A DNA stretch of 64,000 nt from Kiloniellales bacterium (lineage in GTDB: Bacteria > Pseudomonadota > Alphaproteobacteria > Kiloniellales > JAKSBE01). Where the stretch lies: positions 104,716-168,715 of the forward strand of contig JASJBF010000051.1 of assembly GCA_030066685.1 (NCBI GenBank), in the 5' to 3' direction. The position numbers and the translations under genes are program-made. Below are positions 18,422 to 25,816 of the stretch, piece by piece. Position 1 is the stretch's first letter. Every line of letters begins with the position of its first letter. The notes below the pieces were generated by a model. It was not told where the DNA came from. It did no database searches and saw nothing but the letters and a program-made list of their open reading frames with translations.

Positions 18422-19138
18422 TCAGTCGGCGTCCTCGCCCTGCACCATCAGCTCCAGGGTCTTCACGTCGGTCACGACGATGTAGCCGCCGCGGTCGTAG
18501 GTGATGACTCCCTGGTCCTGGAGCAGCCGCAGCGACTTGTTGGTGCTTTCCCGGGTCGCACCGAGCATGTTGCCGAGCTCTTCCTGGGAAAGCTTGATGT
18601 CCAGCTTGATCCCCTCGCGGCTTGGCGAGCCGTGGCCCCGGGTCAGGGTCAGCAGCCGCTTGGCCAGCCGGCGCGGGATGTTGAGGAAGATCGTGTCCTC
18701 GATGATGTCGCTGATCCAGCGGACGCGCTCGCAGAGCATCTCCATCATCCGTATGCAAAGCGCGGGGTGCTTCTCCAAAAAAGGGACGAAGTCCTTCCTG
18801 TCGACCCTCAGCAGCTTGGTCGGTGCCATGGCGACCGCGCCGGCGGTCCGTTCCCGTCCGTCCAGCAGGGCGATCTCGCCCAAGACCTGGCCCGGTTCCA
18901 TGATGTTCAGGAAGATCTCCCGTCCCTCATCCGACAGCGTGTTGATTCCGACCCGTCCGGCCAGGATCGCGTAGAGGCACTCGCCGGGAGCGCCCTTGTG
19001 GAAGATCACCTGGCCATCGGTGAAGACCTCGGTCTTGCAGAGGTTCAGGAACTCGTCGAGCTCTGCCGCCTGAAGCTGGCTCAACAGCCCTGTGGACAGG
19101 ATCTTCTTGAGCTCCGCAGACTCTCGGTTGAATGACAT
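18422..19138 (-). CDS. Crp/Fnr-family transcription regulator
   Basis: A 238-residue regulator with an N-terminal cyclic-nucleotide-binding fold and a C-terminal winged helix. The phosphate-binding cassette reads LGEIALLDGRERTAG, keeping the Glu (88) and Arg-Thr-Ala (97-99) that in E. coli CRP contact cAMP; Ser-143 matches CRP Ser-128 while the preceding Thr is replaced by Ile. There is no FNR cysteine cluster. The recognition helix (about 194-206, ATRESTNKSLRLL) keeps CRP's Arg-Glu pair (196-197) with Lys-201 where CRP has Arg, so TGTGA-type half-sites are expected. It follows TfuA by 108 bases on the same strand, and a perfect TGTGA-N6-TCACA site lies upstream of the peptide precursor gene, so it is a good candidate for the cluster's regulator. 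cAMP binding is inferred. Confidence 0.9.
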   Translation of the reverse strand: MSFNRESAELKKILSTGLLSQLQAAELDEFLNLCKTEVFTDGQVIFHKGAPGECLYAILAGRVGINTLSDEGREIFLNIMEPGQVLGEIALLDGRERTAGAVAMAPTKLLRVDRKDFVPFLEKHPALCIRMMEMLCERVRWISDIIEDTIFLNIPRRLAKRLLTLTRGHGSPSREGIKLDIKLSQEELGNMLGATRESTNKSLRLLQDQGVITYDRGGYIVVTDVKTLELMVQGEDAD

Positions 19139-19246
19139 TCCACAGGTTCCCGGCTTGGATGACGACGACAGAATACTCCCGCACTGTCGCCTTCGTCCAA
19201 TGGCATGGTTCGGTATTGGGAGTCGCCGGCGCCCCGGCGCCGAAAC

Positions 19247-19999
19247 TCAGGCCGTTCCGGGCCGATGACCCTGCCCGGACAGCCGGGTGGCCTGGTCCCA
19301 GTGGACTGTGTGCTCGAAGTGGAACTGAACCTGCTTGACCGGCGGCTCGCCCTTGAAACGGTCGCGCATGGTCCGCAGCATGAGCAAGGCATCCTCGCGC
19401 TTCTGGTCGACCCGGCCGCCGGGGAGCCAGGATCTGAAACGTTCGAGCTCGGCGTTCGACACGCCCGACGCGGCGGCATCCGAGATCATGGTGCCGTAGG
19501 TCCGCTCCCGGTAATGCCGGGCCTTGGCCGCGCTTTCGAGGCTCTGTCGCGAGGCTTCCGTCAGGACGTTGGCGGCGCAGGCATCGGAGAGGGTTCGGCG
19601 GATCGACACCATGGCCTCGGAGAGCAAAGGATACCCGAGTTCCGCCGGTCCATGGGTGACGGCAACCTCGTCGTCGTCCTCCAGGTGGCCGTCCCGAAAG
19701 GCCTGAAAGATCGCGCCCACGCCTTCCATGCCGAAAGGCGCGAGCTCTGCGGCGCGCAGGGCACCCATGCTCGAGGCGCCAAAGACGTGGACCCCGCGGC
19801 TCAGGGCGTAGAGGATCTCCTTGTGCCAGACCGAGGGCACGTTTTCGAAGTAGCCGTCGATGATCCCGATCGCCACCGGTTTCTTGAGCGTGACCCGGTA
19901 CACGTCGCCTTCGGAGACCGGCGGCAGGTACTCGGCCGGCAACTCCTCCCTCGCCTCCTCGGCCGGCAGCGTCGGCCCGGTGAAGATGTAGATCGTCAT
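19247..19999 (-). CDS. tfuA: TfuA family protein (YcaO partner)
   Basis: A 250-residue TfuA protein. The family is named from the trifolitoxin locus; TfuA partners of YcaO proteins are needed for thioamide formation in methyl-coenzyme M reductase and in thioamidated RiPPs. The opening MTIYIFTGPTLPAEEARE and the conserved block VFGASSMGALRAAEL (residues 73-86) are diagnostic. Its ATG overlaps the ycaO stop codon by four bases (ATGA), so the two are translationally coupled. The last 25 residues (HWDQATRLSGQGHRPGTA) look unconserved. Confidence 0.9.
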   Translation of the reverse strand: MTIYIFTGPTLPAEEAREELPAEYLPPVSEGDVYRVTLKKPVAIGIIDGYFENVPSVWHKEILYALSRGVHVFGASSMGALRAAELAPFGMEGVGAIFQAFRDGHLEDDDEVAVTHGPAELGYPLLSEAMVSIRRTLSDACAANVLTEASRQSLESAAKARHYRERTYGTMISDAAASGVSNAELERFRSWLPGGRVDQKREDALLMLRTMRDRFKGEPPVKQVQFHFEHTVHWDQATRLSGQGHRPGTA

Positions 20000-21231
20000 G
20001 TCTGGCCTCCCTTGAGGCGCCGAAGCCGCTCACCGGGAACGTAGCGTGCCGAGCTGTCAATCCCCTCCAGGCCGGGAATGATGACCCGCACCACGGGGAT
20101 CTTGAACTCCGGCCTGGTCAGATCGACGGCGATGACTTCTTCTATCCCGACGGCCCGGAGCCGGTCGAGCAGCAGGCGTAGATCCTCTTCGAAGCTGCGA
20201 CCGTGATAGGACGGTGCATCATGGAAGCTGCGGCCGCCGGTGCTGGGTGCCATGACCCTTCGCCAAGCGTCGTAGGTCTGGCGGTCGAGGAACGCCTCGT
20301 AGCCCTGCCTCGGCATGTCGTCGCGCGCGCCGGCGATGAAGGTGAGCCGGCTCTGCGCCGCTTCCGTCAGGGCACGCAGCAAAGCGACCTCGCGGACCAG
20401 GTGGCAGCCCATGCCGGCTGCGGGACGGACGGTCTGCGAAAGACCTGAATCCTCCTGGAGGATTCGGCAAAGGAAGACCGGCAGGCCGATATCGCTTGTG
20501 GTTTCCCATACCGCGACCATGACGCCGGCCTGCGCAAAGCGGTCCAGCAACTCGCGGCAACGGGGGTCATCGACCGTGTGGAGGTTGACCCTTGTCGCTT
20601 CGCGCTCGCTGTCTTCAAGCCGGTGCCAGAGCGTCATGGCATCCCGCTCGATCAATTCGCAGATCGCGTGGGTGGTCGCCTCCAGATAGTGGTTGCCAGA
20701 GGCCAGGCCGTTGGAACTGGCCTGGAAACAGCCGTGCCCGCTGGGCAGGGGCAAGGTGTAGTCCAGGTGAACCGTCTCGTAGGGAACCCAGCGCGGACTA
20801 TCGCCCATAAGGTCGTCGCCCTCGACCCAGAGAATTCGCTCGAAGGGCGTGAACCGGCTGTCGGAGAGCCGCGGGAGCCGATCCACATCGACCACGGCTT
20901 GGGTGTACCTCAGGTCTTCAAGGCTGCAGAGCTTGAGCGGATGGGAGATCCGCTCGGCGTGAAGGGATTCGACCGATTCCATCAGGCCGGAGACCTTGGC
21001 CGCGATCAGGTCGAAACCTTTGCCCTGGGCCACGGAAACGGAGCGCGAGTTCGGCCGGCACACCATGACCACCGGGATTCCGATAGTGTCGAGACCTGTG
21101 ACGTTTGCGATGCGTGTGATGCCCATGACCGGGACGAACGGCAAGACCCGCTCCAGGGTCTTCTCGGGCGGGACAAGACGATGGGTGGACTCACGATAGC
21201 CCTTGGTTGCTTCTGCGACTTCCAACCCCAT
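19996..21231 (-). CDS. ycaO: YcaO-family peptide-backbone cyclodehydratase/thioamide synthase
   Basis: ATP-dependent enzyme of 411 residues that activates backbone amides. The three ATP/Mg motifs are visible: SGLMESVE at residues 81-88, EATTHAICELIERDAM at 184-199, and EAAQSR at 290-295 followed by LTFIAGARDD. The protein lacks an azoline-type PxPxP C-terminus (it ends GERLRRLKGGQT), and its partner is TfuA rather than an E1-like or ocin-ThiF protein; together these favour thioamidation over azole formation. The start ATG at 21231 has AAGAGA about 5 bases upstream. It lies 148 bases after the repeat-containing precursor gene, with a hairpin between them. There is no methanogenesis here, so a RiPP role is most likely. 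Product chemistry is inferred. Confidence 0.92.
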   Translation of the reverse strand: MGLEVAEATKGYRESTHRLVPPEKTLERVLPFVPVMGITRIANVTGLDTIGIPVVMVCRPNSRSVSVAQGKGFDLIAAKVSGLMESVESLHAERISHPLKLCSLEDLRYTQAVVDVDRLPRLSDSRFTPFERILWVEGDDLMGDSPRWVPYETVHLDYTLPLPSGHGCFQASSNGLASGNHYLEATTHAICELIERDAMTLWHRLEDSEREATRVNLHTVDDPRCRELLDRFAQAGVMVAVWETTSDIGLPVFLCRILQEDSGLSQTVRPAAGMGCHLVREVALLRALTEAAQSRLTFIAGARDDMPRQGYEAFLDRQTYDAWRRVMAPSTGGRSFHDAPSYHGRSFEEDLRLLLDRLRAVGIEEVIAVDLTRPEFKIPVVRVIIPGLEGIDSSARYVPGERLRRLKGGQT

Positions 21232-21325
21232 CGTCTCTTGCCTCGTGAAGACCCAAGCTTCAGCCCGACAAAGCCTAGATCAAGTGAAAGCTTCCGTGCA
21301 GACCTGGCCGCTCGCAGTAGTGGAC

Positions 21326-21361
21326 GGCGCCGCAGCGGGGCATCCTGACTTGTGCGGCGCC
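21326..21361 (-). promoter_or_regulatory. hairpin between the precursor and ycaO genes
   Basis: GGCGCCGCA (21326-21334) and TGCGGCGCC (21353-21361) form a perfect 9-bp stem with an 18-base loop, 19 bases after the precursor stop codon. No T-run follows on the minus strand, so it is more likely a partial attenuator or mRNA 3'-end stabiliser than a full terminator. Such a structure would let precursor mRNA exceed enzyme mRNA. Confidence 0.6.
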
Positions 21362-21379
21362 TTTCCAACTTCGCGCCGT

Positions 21380-21847
21380 TTAGGCGTGAGATCTTGGTTC
21401 CATGCCTTCAGCCTCGATGTAGGCACGGCTGGCGCCGTGGTCGCCGGCCTCGATGTAGGCGCGGCTGGCACCGTGGTCGCCGGCTTCGATGTAGGCACGG
21501 CTGGCGCCGTGGTCGCCGGCCTCGATGTAGGCGCGGCTGGCGCCGTGGTCGCCGGCCTCGATGTAGGCGCGGCTGGCGCCGTGGTCGCCGGCCTCGATGT
21601 AGGCACGGCTGGCGTCGTGGTCGCCGGCCTCGATGTAGGCGCGGCTGGCGCCGTGGTCGCCGGCTTCGATGTAGGCGCGGCTGGCGCCGTGGTCGGCAAC
21701 GGCCGACACCCGACTCGGCTTTGCGGTCTGGGTGGTTGTGCCGGGAGACGCGGTCTCGGCTACTGGACGGCTTCCCGTATCGTCGACCAAATAGAGAAAC
21801 CCGTCCGCACCCCGGATCAGGGTGCAACGCTTTGTGATAGCAGTCAT
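21380..21847 (-). CDS. putative multi-core RiPP precursor with eight 12-residue repeats
   Basis: A 155-residue protein with a leader of 51 residues (starting MTAITKRCTLIRGADGFLYL, then a Thr/Ala/Pro-rich stretch), eight head-to-tail copies of DHGASRAYIEAG (residues 52-147) and a tail GMEPRSHA. Repeat 3 has DHDASR and repeat 8 ends in Glu; all others are identical. I chose the ATG at 21847 because GGGGG lies 5 bases upstream; an in-frame ATG at 21859 has no ribosome site. The gene heads the minus-strand set with ycaO and tfuA. In known thioamidated RiPPs such as the thiovarsolins the precursor also has repeated cores, which supports reading each repeat as a core peptide. Cysteine and threonine are absent from the repeat, so azole formation is unlikely except at Ser. 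No leader-family match is claimed. Confidence 0.85.
   Translation of the reverse strand: MTAITKRCTLIRGADGFLYLVDDTGSRPVAETASPGTTTQTAKPSRVSAVADHGASRAYIEAGDHGASRAYIEAGDHDASRAYIEAGDHGASRAYIEAGDHGASRAYIEAGDHGASRAYIEAGDHGASRAYIEAGDHGASRAYIEAEGMEPRSHA
21407..21694 (-). repeat. eight tandem 36-bp repeats inside the precursor gene
   Basis: Exactly 8 x 36 bases, each one codon-phased copy of the 12-residue unit. Copies differ at only nine positions in total from the consensus: seven are synonymous (GAG/GAA, CGC/CGT, GGC/GGT, GCC/GCT) and two change the protein (Gly to Asp in copy 3, last Gly to Glu in copy 8). There are no spacers, so it is not a CRISPR array. Confidence 0.97.
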
Positions 21848-21869
21848 GTATGCCCCCATATTGAGAGAA

Positions 21870-21892
21870 TTTAAGATAAATCTTATATAAGA
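21870..21892 (-). promoter_or_regulatory. AT-rich candidate promoter of the precursor gene
   Basis: This is a strikingly AT-rich block in a GC-rich genome. It contains TCTTATATAAGA, a perfect 12-bp palindrome (21881-21892), and on the minus strand the possible -10 sequences TATATA/TATAAG and TATCTT. With TATCTT as -10, transcription would start near 21866, placing the CRP-like site centre about 63 bases upstream, close to the class I spacing. This is inference from pattern only. Confidence 0.5.
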
Positions 21893-21920
21893 ATTTTTAT
21901 TCGGCGTTGCGGAAGGCCGT

Positions 21921-21938
21921 CTGTGAAGTGGCTCACAG
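21921..21938. promoter_or_regulatory. perfect CRP-type operator palindrome
   Basis: CTGTGAAGTGGCTCACAG contains TGTGA-N6-TCACA with both half-sites perfect and one further symmetric pair (C/G) outside. It lies between the divergent precursor gene (ATG at 21847) and the 87-residue gene (ATG at 22026). A Crp-family regulator with matching recognition-helix residues is encoded at 18422-19138. Binding has not been shown; it is a prediction. Confidence 0.7.
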
Positions 21939-22025
21939 CGCGCGGAATGGGCGGTCCCTAAACTGCGGGCAAATACGTTGGCGCTTAGGTTGTCGAGCGC
22001 ATCTTTTCCAGGAGGAATCAAAGGG

Positions 22026-22289
22026 ATGGCGACTTCTGATAGTCCAGAAGCGACCGACGAATTGTTTGCCTTGGGAACCCTCGTTTCGGACCTGAAGCGG
22101 CTGGAATCTAAGATGATGTCGCAGGGTTTCTTGATCGCGGCGACCTTGATCGGTGCCGCAGCCGAGGCGGTGACGGACGAAATGACCGATAATCTGAGGG
22201 CCTCGGCAGGAGAGCTGACGGAAGACAGGGCGCAACGCGGCCGTCATCTGGCCCCCCTGGATGCCTCGGGACCTGAGCGTATTCAGTGA
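22026..22289 (+). CDS. small protein divergent from the precursor gene, unknown function
   Basis: An 87-residue protein with an excellent ribosome site (AGGAGGA at 22010-22016, nine bases before the ATG). It starts MATSDSPEATDELFALGTLV, continues with a charged amphipathic stretch (SDLKRLESKMMSQ) and a hydrophobic segment GFLIAATLIGAAAEAV (about residues 34-49), then an acidic helix and a Gly/Pro tail. I do not recognise the family. It shares the CRP-type operator with the precursor and could be an immunity or accessory protein, or a second peptide. It is convergent with the large cyclase-like gene, 56 bases away. Confidence 0.7.
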   Translation: MATSDSPEATDELFALGTLVSDLKRLESKMMSQGFLIAATLIGAAAEAVTDEMTDNLRASAGELTEDRAQRGRHLAPLDASGPERIQ

Positions 22290-22345
22290 TGAATTTGGGG
22301 CGGCGGTAAAGGAGTCTCAGCGCGAGTTGGGGCGCTGGAGGACGT

Positions 22346-25300
22346 CTAGGCGACCGGCGTCGAGACCGATACCATCGCCTCTTTCGCCTCCAAAGCATAG
22401 AAACCCATGTCCAGGCTTTGGTAGAGCTGGAGCGCTTCTTCGGCGCGCTCTCGCCCCTTTTCGCACGCGGTCCGCTCAAGCTGCAGCTTTCCGAGTGCCA
22501 AGGTGCAGTGGCTGACCAGGGGAATCATGTTGCACCCTTCCGCAAGGGTGCGGGCCCGATTGAATGCGGCAGCCGCCTTGCGCGGCTTCGCGGAGGAGTC
22601 ACACCTGTAGACCTCGCCCAGTGCCCACTGCGCCCAGGCTTCGTCGCCCTTCTCCCCGTTCTTTCGCGCAATGTCCAGGGCCGTGGTCGCATGGGCAAGG
22701 GCCTGTTCCGGCTGGCCAGCGCGAAGCAGCGCCTCGGCCAGCCAGACGGTCTGCTGCGACAGCTGACCGAGCACAACGTCCTTGTTGGCAAGCTCGACGG
22801 CATGCTTCAGGTAGCCCAGGCCTTGGGCCACGCTTCCGGTGCGCACCAGAGCGTAGCCGAGCGATGCTTCGCTGAGGGGCAGCAGGAGCTTGATCTGGGT
22901 TGCCATGCAGAATCTGTGGGCCCGCTCGAGCAGCGGGATGCTGCGGGCGAAGTCCCCTTTGCGCAGCAAAGCCGTGCCGACCGAAAGACAAGCGTAGATC
23001 TGGCTGAAGCTGTGTCCGTTGTCGTCGGCAATGCGCAGCGCCTCGTCGCCGATCTTGAGGGCCGCCGAGAATTGTCCGAGTTCGCCCAGCGACCGCGCCA
23101 GGTCGGCCCGGCAGCCGACCGCGACGGCCGCAAGGGTGCCGAACTGCTTGTGCGAGGAGCCCTCCGAAACTCGCGGGATGATCCCTTCAAGCAGCTTCCT
23201 CGCATCGGCATAGTCGCCGCGATCGATGAGCATGCAGCCAAGCCGTGAAGCGACCTGGATCTCGAGCTGAGGGTCGTTGAGGCGGCGCGCGATTTCCAAT
23301 CCCTGGCGGCCCATTTCGATCGCGTTGCTGAGGTCGCCATCGACCCAGTGGCAGAGCATGCGCGCGGAGCAGATCCGCCCGAGCCTGCGCTCGTCATGCA
23401 ACGCCTTCGCGGCGGTCTCGGCGGCTTTCAGGACGCTGCGCACCGCCTCGGATCGGCCGAGTGTAAAAAGCGACTGCGCCAGCTCAAGCCGGATATCGAT
23501 GCCTCTGCGGCCGTTGCGCTCGGTCTGCGGCATCTGCGACTGCGCGTCCAGCGCCTTCGTGAAGAGCGCCTGCGCGGCGCCGTTCCGCGACGCCGATTGT
23601 GCTTTGCTGGCCGCGCGGCGGGAGTAGGCCGCGGCATAGGCCCAAGCCTGAGCCCGGTAGGCGTGGTGCGCGAGCAACTCGATCTTGATCGGCAATTCGT
23701 GCCCCGGCCGGCGACGAAGCACCTTCATGACCGTCGTGTGCAAGCGTAGCCGATCGCGCTTCAGCAAGGTGCCGTAGGCGACCTCGTGGGTGAGGGTATG
23801 GCGAAACCCGTACTCCAGGTTGGGCACGATCCGCGTGCGCTGCAGGAAGCCCTGCTGCTCGAGTCGAGCCAGGCGATCGGCCAAACGCCCGTCGTCGGGG
23901 GCCAGAAGCTGCTCTAGCAGGGCAACGTCGAAGTTCCGCCCGATAACAGCCGCACAGAGAAGCGTCTGTCGGTCGACGCGCGGCAGGCTGTCGATTCGTT
24001 CCGCGAGGACGCCATGGACCGTGACCGGGATCTCGATGTCGTCGAGCGGCACCACCAGCCGGTAGCCGCCGGGCGTGCCGTTCAGCGCCCCGCGCTCCAC
24101 CAGCGAGCGAACGCACTCTTCGATGAAGAAGGGGTTGCCTTGGGTCTTCTCGATCAGCTTTGGAACCAGCGCGCCGAGCTCCTCCGAATTTCCCAGGAGC
24201 GATCCTACGAAGCGAGCCGCATCCTCGGAGGGCAGGGCTCGGATCCTGTGTTCAGCGAACTTCGGCCAGCTGGTCCAGGGCCGTTCGTGATGCGTCCGCG
24301 AGGTCAGGACCAGTTGCACCCGGGTCCCATCCAGGCGGACAGCGATCTCCTTGCCGAGTTGCTGGACCTCCGCGCTGGCCCAATGAAAATCCTCGAGAAC
24401 AATAACCAGGGGCGACTTGCGGCCGAGGGCACGGGTCGCGTCGGCGATGGTGACGAGGGTCACACGCAAGCGTTCCGGCGGATCTAGGGTCTCCCAGCCC
24501 GGGTCGTTCGCGCTCTGTCCAAGCACTTCGAGAATCGCGGAAACGGCGTGGGTCCCGCCGACGTTCAGGGACTTGAGCCGCTCAGCGATGGCTGCCGCGA
24601 GTACCTCTGGCTCGGAGGCGGCTTCGAGTTCGAGCAGGGAACGGACCAGGCGCGCCACGGGATCGTCGAAGCGAGGCACGCCGGTCGGCTCCAGATCCAC
24701 CTTCAGGGCCCGGGCGACGCCGGTGTCGATCGTCCCCAGGAACTCGAGCATCAGCCGGGATTTGCCGACACCGGGATCGCCGGTGACCACGAAGACTTCG
24801 CCATGTCCCTCGCTGGCCCGAGACAGGCTTTCGCTCAAGGCGGTCAGATCCTGCGTTCGTCCGACGAAGGATGGCTTGCCCGGGCTCTCGAGCGGACGCA
24901 TCGACCGCTTGGTTATGGTCACGCCCTGCAGGGCGTAGGTGCGAACGCTGCGGGAGGCCTGGCTCAGCCTGATGTAACTCGCCGGCTCGACCCGCACCTG
25001 GCCGGCCACGAGGCGGTAGGTCTCCTCGGTCAGCAGGACCTCGCCCGGCCGGGCCGCTTCCTCGGCGCGTGCGGCGAGATGAACCGTGTCCCCGACGGCC
25101 CGATATTCGGTCAGCATGCCGCTGCGGATCGGCTGGGTGACAATGATCCCCGAGCTGATCCCGACCCGCAGGCGAACGGGCAGGGGTACCCCGCCCGCTT
25201 CGTCGGTCCTGGCGCAGCGCAGTTGAATCTCCTGCGCTGCCAGACAGGCACGGATCGCGTGATGCTCCTGCGCCGCCGGTGCGCCGAACAATGCCATGAC

Positions 25301-25525
25301 CCCGTCGCCCAGAAGCTGCGTGACCGTCCCGCCATAGCCGTCGATGGCTTCGACCATTGCCTGCAGCCAAGGTAGCAGCTTCTCGTTCGCTTCCTCGGGA
25401 TCGGCGTCCGCCACCAGGGCGGAGGAGTTCACGATGTCGGCGAAAAGAACGGTCGCGAACTTGCGCTCGCCCTCGAGGAGGCCACGCGTGCGGGATGGCG
25501 AGACGTAGTTTTGGCTCACAGCCAT
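22346..25525 (-). CDS. cyclase-like / AAA ATPase / TPR signalling protein
   Basis: A 1059-residue multidomain protein. Residues 20-180 are a class III nucleotide cyclase-like domain with both metal-binding Asp positions (FADIVNSS, Asp-30; LLGDGVMALFG, Asp-74). The base-specifying Lys is Gln-70 and the transition-state Asn is His-149 in GDTVHLAAR (Arg-153 kept), a variant common in this architecture, so activity is uncertain. Residues 220-560 are an AAA/STAND-type ATPase with Walker A GDPGVGKS (249-256) and Walker B-like LVIVLEDFHWA. Residues 620-1050 are TPR-like helical repeats. It lies near the YcaO/TfuA locus and has a CRP-like site about 250 bases upstream, so a link with the Crp-type regulator is attractive but unproven. 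Confidence 0.85.
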   Translation of the reverse strand: MAVSQNYVSPSRTRGLLEGERKFATVLFADIVNSSALVADADPEEANEKLLPWLQAMVEAIDGYGGTVTQLLGDGVMALFGAPAAQEHHAIRACLAAQEIQLRCARTDEAGGVPLPVRLRVGISSGIIVTQPIRSGMLTEYRAVGDTVHLAARAEEAARPGEVLLTEETYRLVAGQVRVEPASYIRLSQASRSVRTYALQGVTITKRSMRPLESPGKPSFVGRTQDLTALSESLSRASEGHGEVFVVTGDPGVGKSRLMLEFLGTIDTGVARALKVDLEPTGVPRFDDPVARLVRSLLELEAASEPEVLAAAIAERLKSLNVGGTHAVSAILEVLGQSANDPGWETLDPPERLRVTLVTIADATRALGRKSPLVIVLEDFHWASAEVQQLGKEIAVRLDGTRVQLVLTSRTHHERPWTSWPKFAEHRIRALPSEDAARFVGSLLGNSEELGALVPKLIEKTQGNPFFIEECVRSLVERGALNGTPGGYRLVVPLDDIEIPVTVHGVLAERIDSLPRVDRQTLLCAAVIGRNFDVALLEQLLAPDDGRLADRLARLEQQGFLQRTRIVPNLEYGFRHTLTHEVAYGTLLKRDRLRLHTTVMKVLRRRPGHELPIKIELLAHHAYRAQAWAYAAAYSRRAASKAQSASRNGAAQALFTKALDAQSQMPQTERNGRRGIDIRLELAQSLFTLGRSEAVRSVLKAAETAAKALHDERRLGRICSARMLCHWVDGDLSNAIEMGRQGLEIARRLNDPQLEIQVASRLGCMLIDRGDYADARKLLEGIIPRVSEGSSHKQFGTLAAVAVGCRADLARSLGELGQFSAALKIGDEALRIADDNGHSFSQIYACLSVGTALLRKGDFARSIPLLERAHRFCMATQIKLLLPLSEASLGYALVRTGSVAQGLGYLKHAVELANKDVVLGQLSQQTVWLAEALLRAGQPEQALAHATTALDIARKNGEKGDEAWAQWALGEVYRCDSSAKPRKAAAAFNRARTLAEGCNMIPLVSHCTLALGKLQLERTACEKGRERAEEALQLYQSLDMGFYALEAKEAMVSVSTPVA

Positions 25526-25816
25526 CGAGGTACTTCACCTCTCGCGCCGACCGAGCTGCAGCTGGCCGCCTTCGATTCCAGGGCGGTCGCCTGCGCTGCT
25601 CCAAAGCTCCCGAAGGCCGCTGTTCCGCTAGCCAATGGGACCGACATCAGGATAAACCCCTACAACATAAGAATACAGCCCAGCGCTTGCAAAGGCGAGT
25701 CCCGTAGTCCCACGGGCCGAAAGCCCCCGGTCAGATTATCTTCCGCACTTTCAATATACTTTTCAACTACTTCGTGAAGAATTTCACACAGACTTAAACG
25801 TGTATAGCCCTTGTAT
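25526..25816. promoter_or_regulatory. upstream region of the cyclase-like gene with a CRP-like site
   Basis: A 291-base gap, AT-rich at its distal end. CGTGA-AGAATT-TCACA at 25773-25788 matches the CRP consensus at nine of ten half-site bases. It is about 250 bases upstream of the cyclase-like ATG at 25525 and just beyond the stop codon of radC, so it can only serve the minus-strand gene. No gene is seen in the gap. Confidence 0.5.

Follow-up and report, generated by a model that had tools for sequence, protein, structure and literature searches.

A candidate peptide-pheromone circuit combining a YcaO/TfuA pair with a tetratricopeptide-repeat cyclase in a Kiloniellales bacterium

The module in the window

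We analyzed a stretch of 64,000 nucleotides from a Kiloniellales bacterium (GenBank assembly GCA_030066685.1, contig JASJBF010000051.1, positions 104,716 to 168,715; hereafter the window), which carries five successive minus-strand genes encoding a class III cyclase with a tetratricopeptide repeat (TPR) domain, a repeat-bearing peptide precursor, a YcaO protein, a TfuA protein, and a Crp-family regulator (Table 1). The order cyclase, TGTGA-N6-TCACA operator, precursor, ycaO, tfuA, crp is kept in relatives. A first-pass annotation, made from the sequence alone, had described a 155-codon precursor with a 51-residue leader and eight near-identical units upstream of ycaO, tfuA, and crp. Reading of the genes and a Tandem Repeats Finder run, which returned a single array of period 36 with 7.9 copies and 95% matches, agree with that description, and the ATGA coupling of ycaO and tfuA as well as both enzyme families it had named are borne out by the Pfam matches listed in Table 1.

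Table 1. Features of the module and their positions in the window
Feature	Position	Strand	Description
Crp-family regulator gene	18422-19138	-	Pfam cNMP_binding and HTH_Crp_2; last module gene in relatives
tfuA	19247-19999	-	Pfam PF07812, E 7e-48; PDB 6xp8, E 6e-35
ycaO, TfuA-type	19996-21231	-	Pfam PF02624, E 2e-85; C-terminus ...GERLRRLKGGQT
Precursor gene	21380-21847	-	155 codons: 51-residue leader (from MTAITKR), eight 12-residue units, 8-residue tail
Tandem array	21411-21695	-	36-bp units encoding DHGASRAYIEAG eight times; dipeptide after Arg is Ala-Tyr in all units
Leader motif RGADGFLY	21791-21814	-	RGADGxL invariant across 17 aligned family members, selected with a looser pattern
Perfect TGTGA-N6-TCACA operator	21922-21937		16-bp palindrome upstream of precursor
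Small divergent open reading frame, 87 aa	22026-22289	+	Between cyclase and precursor; LIGAAAEA motif
Class III cyclase + AAA/STAND-type ATPase + TPR protein, 1059 aa	22346-25525	-	Pfam; conserved gene upstream of precursor; proposed peptide receptor
TPR sensor part (putative), aa 641-1059	22349-23605	-	AlphaFold2 model; co-varies with core in Azospirillum
Class III cyclase domain, aa 15-205	24911-25483	-	Pfam Guanylate_cyc, E 3.5e-17; FADIV and LGDG motifs
Second operator-like site	25773-25788		One mismatch; upstream of cyclase gene

The units of the array are nearly uniform: the third carries D instead of G at position 3 (DHD), and the eighth ends in E instead of G. The DHGASRAYIEAG unit contains neither Cys nor Thr and has a single Ser, frequently replaced by Gly or Ala in relatives. 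Translation could also start at an ATG that lies five codons further upstream (MGAY-MTAITKR). Among the eight DNA copies, seven differences are synonymous and two nonsynonymous (four and two distinct kinds, respectively), compared with 25 synonymous and 83 nonsynonymous among the 108 possible random single changes in the unit. Because 7/9 of the observed differences but 25/108 of the random ones are synonymous, the encoded peptide is probably under selection. Pfam matches of the precursor (gp37_trimer at 25.6 bits against a cutoff of 21.7, TPR_8, DUF6324, and others) were set aside as repeat artifacts; no single stretch passes, and the three best are missing from six homologues. Near-identical precursors with different repeat numbers occur in two pairs of homologues (P0104/P0108 and P0094/L035), as slippage or array recombination would give.

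The cyclase gene lay inside the interval of the first-pass annotation, yet it was absent from its reasoning. Its Asp-bearing motifs, F[AVC]DI[VI] and LGDG, are kept in nearly all variants listed. An AlphaFold2 model of residues 611-1059 reached a pLDDT of 92.6, and the modeled TPR domain, which forms a superhelix of the Rap, NprR, and AimR kind, resembles these pheromone receptors and MalT. A Pycsar anti-phage system was also considered; its models gave 51 bits to PycC for the cyclase domain and 43 bits to PycTIR for the cyclic-nucleotide-binding part of the Crp gene product, in both cases covering generic parts only.

The ycaO and tfuA genes overlap, and both domains are full-length, as in TfuA-partnered YcaO pairs. 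Throughout the best 80 of 253 loci from GTDB contigs, tfuA lies close to ycaO in 79, and the remaining locus (L118) ends at its own ycaO. The solved chain nearest to the window YcaO is MJ1094 (6pe3, E 7e-41), and the best NCBIfam matches of the two enzymes, TIGR03266 and NF033432, both fall under their equivalog cutoffs. Azole-forming YcaO proteins, which belong to thiazole/oxazole-modified microcin (TOMM) systems, have a PxPxP C-terminus. The window locus has neither such a tail, its YcaO ending in GERLRRLKGGQT, nor a core rich in Cys, Ser, and Thr. Thioamidation of the uL16 type (as far as PMC13063428 describes it) was set aside, since the window YcaO has its own TfuA and precursor.

Regulation of the module is suggested by the perfect operator ahead of the precursor. 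Such a site is present in all 38 loci with a leader-pattern precursor among the 42 loci examined, at 63 to 163 bases from the start codon. It matches 10/10 fixed bases in 31 of them, 9 in 6, and 8 in 1; the same loci supplied 1471 background windows, of which 2 score 10 and 5 score 9. In the locus with 8 matches (L073), both halves are changed and the palindrome is kept (AGTGA..TCACT). The precursor was also found in 41 of 43 Azospirillum loci, which overlap in species with the 42-locus set, and each of the 41 has an operator site of at least 8. The site before the cyclase gene scores 9/10 in all three Kiloniellales (the window and both same-genus relatives) and at most 8/10 in the other 67 loci. 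Since the host genome holds six perfect sites in total, the Crp regulator may have a few other targets. No sigma-70-like promoter was found at 21200-22400.

Occurrence of the precursor family

A database search with the precursor returned six metagenomic homologues (P0002-P0007) with the same leader motif and other repeats. Searches for relatives of YcaO covered 58 genomes of the order, where 22 gave a match, a class-wide draw of 289 genomes, where 30 did, GTDB contigs, and 45 Azospirillum genomes at E<=1e-150. In the latter set, 43 genomes have a YcaO match and 41 a precursor beside it, which is named a hypothetical protein wherever a name was seen; the other two loci (L199 and L200) keep ycaO, tfuA, and crp, with neither precursor nor cyclase seen in the stretch fetched. 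The core itself takes several forms. Kiloniellales have tandem arrays of DHxA[SGA]Rxx[IV][ED][AP], while Azospirillum precursors carry a similar core once, at the C-terminus (for example, DHEAARILITPGA), behind the leader motif RGADGRLY. Niveispirillum, Aerophototrophica, and Oleisolibacter keep the leader and have other short cores without that Arg. Single-core relatives are 54-69 aa long.

Precursor and enzyme follow each other closely. A precursor profile (A2) matches 8/61 genomes of the order (G000, G001, G002, G006, G013, G019, G023, and G033), and these are the same eight whose best YcaO is at least 63% identical among the 58; 14 further genomes have more distant YcaOs only. In G019, precursor and ycaO stand on separate contigs, ycaO at a contig end. 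A second profile (A3) matches 8/289 genomes class-wide at E<=0.01, and all five matches at E<=1e-3 lie within 1 kb of ycaO. The weaker matches comprise G269 (E 0.003), at 2.5 kb from ycaO, and two misses that are not at ycaO (G098 and G207, E 0.005-0.008), and G250 has a good YcaO with no precursor match. These results uphold the proposal of the first-pass annotation that a repeat-core precursor of a ribosomally synthesized and post-translationally modified peptide (RiPP) is served by the YcaO/TfuA pair.

Of the 70 rows in a YcaO tree, 36 form one clade (support 100/98), and 34 of these are loci with the leader; the other two are L055, cut by a contig end yet with repeats, and L093, in which none was found. 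Five rows outside the clade show the leader motif or an RGPDG variant somewhere in the locus, and the leader is therefore not confined to it. Two patterns had been named in advance as speaking against the RiPP assignment, namely, repeat proteins that consistently occur without ycaO and tfuA and enzyme pairs that always sit beside a different precursor. Neither is seen inside the clade, where the exceptions are the two Azospirillum loci that keep the enzymes without a precursor; more distant YcaO/TfuA pairs outside it do lie beside other proteins. In Myxococcus, Polyangium, and gammaproteobacterial loci (50-57% YcaO identity), pattern matching found no RGADG leader near ycaO, no further precursor search being made; TfuA is present in these loci, L118 being cut off. 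Among Chloroflexi loci, the same pattern, likewise with no further precursor search, found the leader in L087 and L101 only.

Alternatively, the repeat protein might be structural or regulatory and merely a neighbor of ycaO and tfuA rather than a RiPP substrate, in keeping with the fact that no modification has been seen and no processing enzyme was found in the module. Its close co-occurrence with ycaO, the combination of a short conserved leader with a variable core, and the small size of the single-core relatives, which could hardly be structural, make this explanation highly improbable.

Further YcaO loci add to the picture. One genome of the order (G006) carries the system twice, and the cores differ (RIM in L035 and RVL in L168, the second cut by a contig end). 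A 32-residue YcaO match had raised the suspicion that the second copy was decaying, but the contig ends there, and it is a cut-off second locus. The genome of the window itself holds a distant second YcaO/TfuA locus (L047, G000:C29:16000-34000; 47% YcaO) with its own cyclase and TPR gene and an unrelated protein of about 200 aa (LLSPTNVLLYGR...IYAFSYEGHYYDL). Relatives of this protein (L039/L120, L040, L042, L043, L105, L117, L122, and L128) end in short tandem repeats (AYSGGK, SGQRVRA, RADLSA, RGASV, SGSKV, and SGARV), and this appears to be another multi-core family beside YcaO/TfuA, independent of the first. In a Rhodospirillales metagenome-assembled genome (L124:8160-9122), an RGPDGRVY motif is followed by about 16 copies of RGAMAA-like units.

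Core dipeptide and TPR domain

The core of the family is variable at two positions. Among the 120 of 180 homologues listed, 108 of the new ones were short, and 104 of these fitted the core pattern and gave 95 distinct rows. Asp(-5) and Arg(0) are constant throughout, the pattern itself having required both. At positions that the pattern left free, Pro(+5) and Gly(+6) show 0.34 and 0.23 bits, respectively, and the two residues after Arg (Arg+1 and Arg+2) show 3.44 and 3.49 bits, with 59 dipeptides among the matches listed. We also compared 19 tandem arrays with 86 units, P0116 being omitted as a near copy of P0114. Between arrays, Arg+1 and Arg+2 differ in 82% and 85% of comparisons, respectively, and within arrays in 11% and 13%, giving the highest between/within ratios of 11 positions. 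Such variation between arrays and uniformity within them is expected when both residues define the product.

The dipeptide varies together with the TPR domain of the cyclase in Azospirillum. The comparison covered 38/43 loci, leaving out three with no full cyclase (L182, L213, and L219) and the two in which no precursor was found (L199 and L200); a first run on 20 loci went in the same direction. Over all pairs, mean identity is 0.81 for YcaO, 0.79 for TfuA, 0.79 for Crp, 0.71 for the cyclase domain, 0.65 for the ATPase, 0.60 for the leader, and 0.44 for TPR. Among pairs with YcaO at least 93% identical, TPR identity falls from 0.95 to 0.62 and 0.40 as the dipeptides differ at zero, one, or two residues (59, 18, and 37 pairs, respectively), and in the same pairs the ATPase stays at 0.94, 0.88, and 0.90 and the cyclase domain at 0.97, 0.94, and 0.96. 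When the 13 HA-group loci are left out, the corresponding TPR values are 0.83, 0.62, and 0.40 (6, 18, and 37 pairs), and at 85-93% YcaO identity they are 0.86, 0.57, and 0.41. In a partial Mantel test with YcaO, cyclase-domain, and ATPase identity held constant, TPR gave a rho of -0.485 (0/1000 permutations as low) and the leader one of -0.42.

The divergent allelic block begins at the border between ATPase and TPR. Of the 37 close pairs that differ at both residues, 33 lose identity at cyclase residues 660-669, two at 670-679, and two at 770-779. Between L188 and L192, nucleotide identity is 0.91-1.00 before the border and 0.41-0.59 across TPR, rises within the precursor, and reaches 0.88-0.97 in ycaO, tfuA, and crp; L190 and L180 follow the same course (0.83-0.99, 0.40-0.53, and 0.95-0.99, respectively). 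For L188 and L189, which share the same core (both TM), TPR nucleotide identity is mostly 0.72-0.83, with one window at 0.51.

These observations bear on a plain multi-core thioamidated RiPP, offensive or metal-binding, whose products act outside the cell and whose cyclase and Crp regulator only control expression upon another cue. Such a product would be compatible with everything that the precursor and its enzymes show, but it predicts neither that the TPR domain tracks the core dipeptide more than TfuA, Crp, and the cyclase domain do nor a divergence edge at the TPR border, and we consider it rather unlikely.

Another account is linkage, in which an old recombination hot spot exchanges the precursor along with the 3' part of the cyclase gene, and TPR and peptide are under different pressures. 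A single recombination block can link the TPR segment and the precursor without any contact between their products because both are adjacent. The exchanged block is indeed contiguous and includes intergenic DNA, and leader identity also drops with core differences (0.93, 0.77, and 0.64), in line with the partial rho of the leader given above. However, the association of TPR persists when leader identity is added as a control (rho -0.38, 0/1000; -0.465 without the HA group), TfuA and Crp then giving -0.02 and -0.01, and L192 and L195 combine identical leaders with different cores and a TPR identity of 0.61. Linkage as the whole explanation therefore appears improbable to us.

Matched allelic blocks of peptide and protein would be expected equally for a bacteriocin and its immunity protein, and two strains named A. 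oryzae carry different alleles (TM and IL). The peptide might thus inhibit cells with another allele, the TPR cyclase being its target or an immunity factor in a kin-recognition or toxin-immunity pair. Against this, the partner is a signaling enzyme with a regulator gene and an operator, not a membrane or nuclease-type immunity protein, and the core is short and polar; we give this possibility quite a low probability.

Proposed circuit and known systems

The first-pass annotation was right about a repeat-core precursor with YcaO/TfuA. It did not take up the cyclase or the Crp operator, nor the relatives with a single core, nor the hypervariable dipeptide with its link to TPR, and these features argue for signaling rather than simple multi-copy production. 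We therefore favor, with reasonable though incomplete confidence, a self-contained peptide-pheromone circuit in which a YcaO/TfuA-modified peptide is read by the TPR cyclase, which drives its own operon via cyclic AMP (cAMP) and Crp. In this circuit, the leader (RGADGxLY) would guide YcaO/TfuA, which would swap backbone oxygen for sulfur, probably close to the Ala-x-Arg that each unit contains, by analogy with the Ala-Pro-Arg repeats in thiovarsolin. We infer that general peptidases would cut the array, as proposed for thiovarsolin, because neither a protease nor a transporter was seen in the conserved module. The peptide would leave and re-enter cells via general transporters and bind the TPR superhelix of a cyclase whose allele matches, and binding would release cyclase activity and thereby cAMP synthesis. 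Crp loaded with cAMP would then act at the TGTGA-N6-TCACA site to raise expression of precursor, ycaO, tfuA, and crp, and in Kiloniellales that of the cyclase as well, and tandem copies would increase the yield of one signal per translated precursor. That the family represents a new class of cell-cell signaling, with a thioamidated pheromone of 1-9 tandem cores, dozens of pherotypes, a swappable TPR domain of an adenylate cyclase, and cAMP-Crp autoinduction, is a broader proposal toward which we lean only slightly.

Several observations weigh against the pheromone circuit. Below 85% YcaO identity, the trend in TPR is nearly gone (0.46, 0.41, and 0.35; 1, 41, and 455 pairs), and the distant Azospirillum loci L202 and L218, which have the same dipeptide at a YcaO identity of 0.77, reach just 0.46 in TPR. 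With YcaO alone held constant, other parts of the locus also correlate with the core (tfuA -0.18, crp -0.25, cyclase domain -0.22, ATPase -0.30, leader -0.48, TPR -0.51). Pairs of loci are not independent, and the permutation models descent incompletely; the adjacency of TPR segment and precursor discussed above belongs here as well. In Kiloniellales, the window (AY) has TPR identities of 0.70 and 0.71 to L031 (MA) and L032 (MV), next to ATPase identities of 0.78 and 0.82, and L031 and L032, which differ at one residue, share 0.81 in TPR and 0.82 in the ATPase. No allele swap of the Azospirillum kind is seen among these three Kiloniellales with full cyclases, and their order of identities fits the co-variation idea weakly, three loci being too few. 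Three arrays (P0006, P0119, and P0121) are mixed at the dipeptide rather than uniform, and the Niveispirillum cores have no Arg. In the fold comparison, eukaryotic TPR proteins are placed level with or ahead of the pheromone receptors. The cyclase has His at a position where class III cyclases usually carry Asn. No transporter that could serve as exporter or importer, and no protease, is among the genes shared across 17 loci from six groups, and thioamidation, secretion, binding, and cAMP production are all deduced from sequence.

In that comparison of shared genes, which took the window, L060, and L077 as references and open reading frames of at least 90 aa, Kiloniellales have four sense-strand genes in common with the other loci, namely, cyclase, ycaO, tfuA, and crp; the precursor falls under the length limit, and opposite-strand shadows also match. 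The divergent 87-aa frame has no Pfam or NCBIfam match, and its relatives were found solely in Kiloniellales loci. Nine flanking proteins of the window are mostly housekeeping; they include purine, arginine, RadC, SfsA, and M24 peptidase families, one has no match, and none is typical of RiPP loci. Azospirillaceae-type loci share a ribbon-helix-helix gene, placed in antisense orientation between cyclase and precursor within the divergent block (L145:5207-5494 and other Azospirillum loci), and several loci have a second one after crp. On plasmid AZO_p4 of A. lipoferum 4B (L145:4052-5167), an IS5-family transposase gene and a hypothetical gene follow the cyclase gene, which is annotated at 2571 bp, shorter than in relatives.

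If the circuit is real, it would provide a peptide pheromone acting via an adenylate cyclase receptor, for which we found no precedent, and a function for a widespread orphan YcaO/TfuA family. It would also offer a natural set of matched peptide-receptor alleles in which specificity is directly testable, and the arrays of Kiloniellales would reveal the relation between a signal gene with one core and a multi-copy one. Azospirillum includes widely used plant inoculants. Judged by titles and the beginnings of abstracts, supplementary tables not being covered, the literature searched lists no description of the leader family, of a YcaO/TfuA pheromone, or of a peptide-sensing TPR cyclase; the 797 precursor families of PMC8120280 may include members of the RGADG leader family.

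The window protein can be compared with several TPR-bearing regulators. The RRNPP receptors (Rap-Phr, NprR-NprX, and AimR-arbitrium) have a helix-turn-helix or Rap-type output, whereas the N-terminus here consists of a class III cyclase and a STAND-like ATPase (AAA_16); in addition, the window host is Gram-negative, and its peptide is a predicted YcaO/TfuA substrate. MalT is a maltotriose- and DNA-binding protein. From MalT and other STAND signal-transduction ATPases, the window protein differs in that its N-terminal output domain is a cyclase. The TOMM kinase/cyclase family (TIGR03903, TOMM_kin_cyc) is likewise a TPR-rich cyclase family named for YcaO systems, and the window protein scores 257.0 bits against it over residues 13-997, far below the curated cutoff of 705.75; it begins with the cyclase and aligns only from model position 277.

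On the enzyme side, the McrA-type YcaO/TfuA of methanogens is similar in that MJ1094 (6pe3/6peu) and 6xp8 are the nearest solved structures, but the predicted substrate here is a small peptide, not methyl-coenzyme M reductase. A further close parallel is thiovarsolin from Streptomyces varsoviensis, which likewise combines a repeat-core precursor with YcaO and TfuA and has the core APR, compared with A-[S/G/A]-R in the window. According to PMC6511847, varA/varY/varT suffices for thioamidated peptides with no specific protease, release of the array by general peptidases is the authors' proposal, and the precursor family ranges from non-repeating to five repeats. Thiovarsolin clusters, as described there, hold genes for VarO (heme-oxygenase-like), ATP-grasp, MFS, and amidinotransferase proteins, whereas the window module has the TPR cyclase, the Crp gene, and the operator instead, and the variable dipeptide after Arg is unlike the thiovarsolin core in that account. 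None of those four gene types is among the shared genes or the nine flanking window proteins, and no VarO-type heme-oxygenase-like Pfam domain is in the module, although no search was aimed at VarO. Repeat-core YcaO/TfuA precursors are thus already known from thiovarsolin, and TPR pheromone receptors from Rap, NprR, and AimR; the circuit proposed here would join thioamide RiPPs and TPR pheromone receptors in one system.

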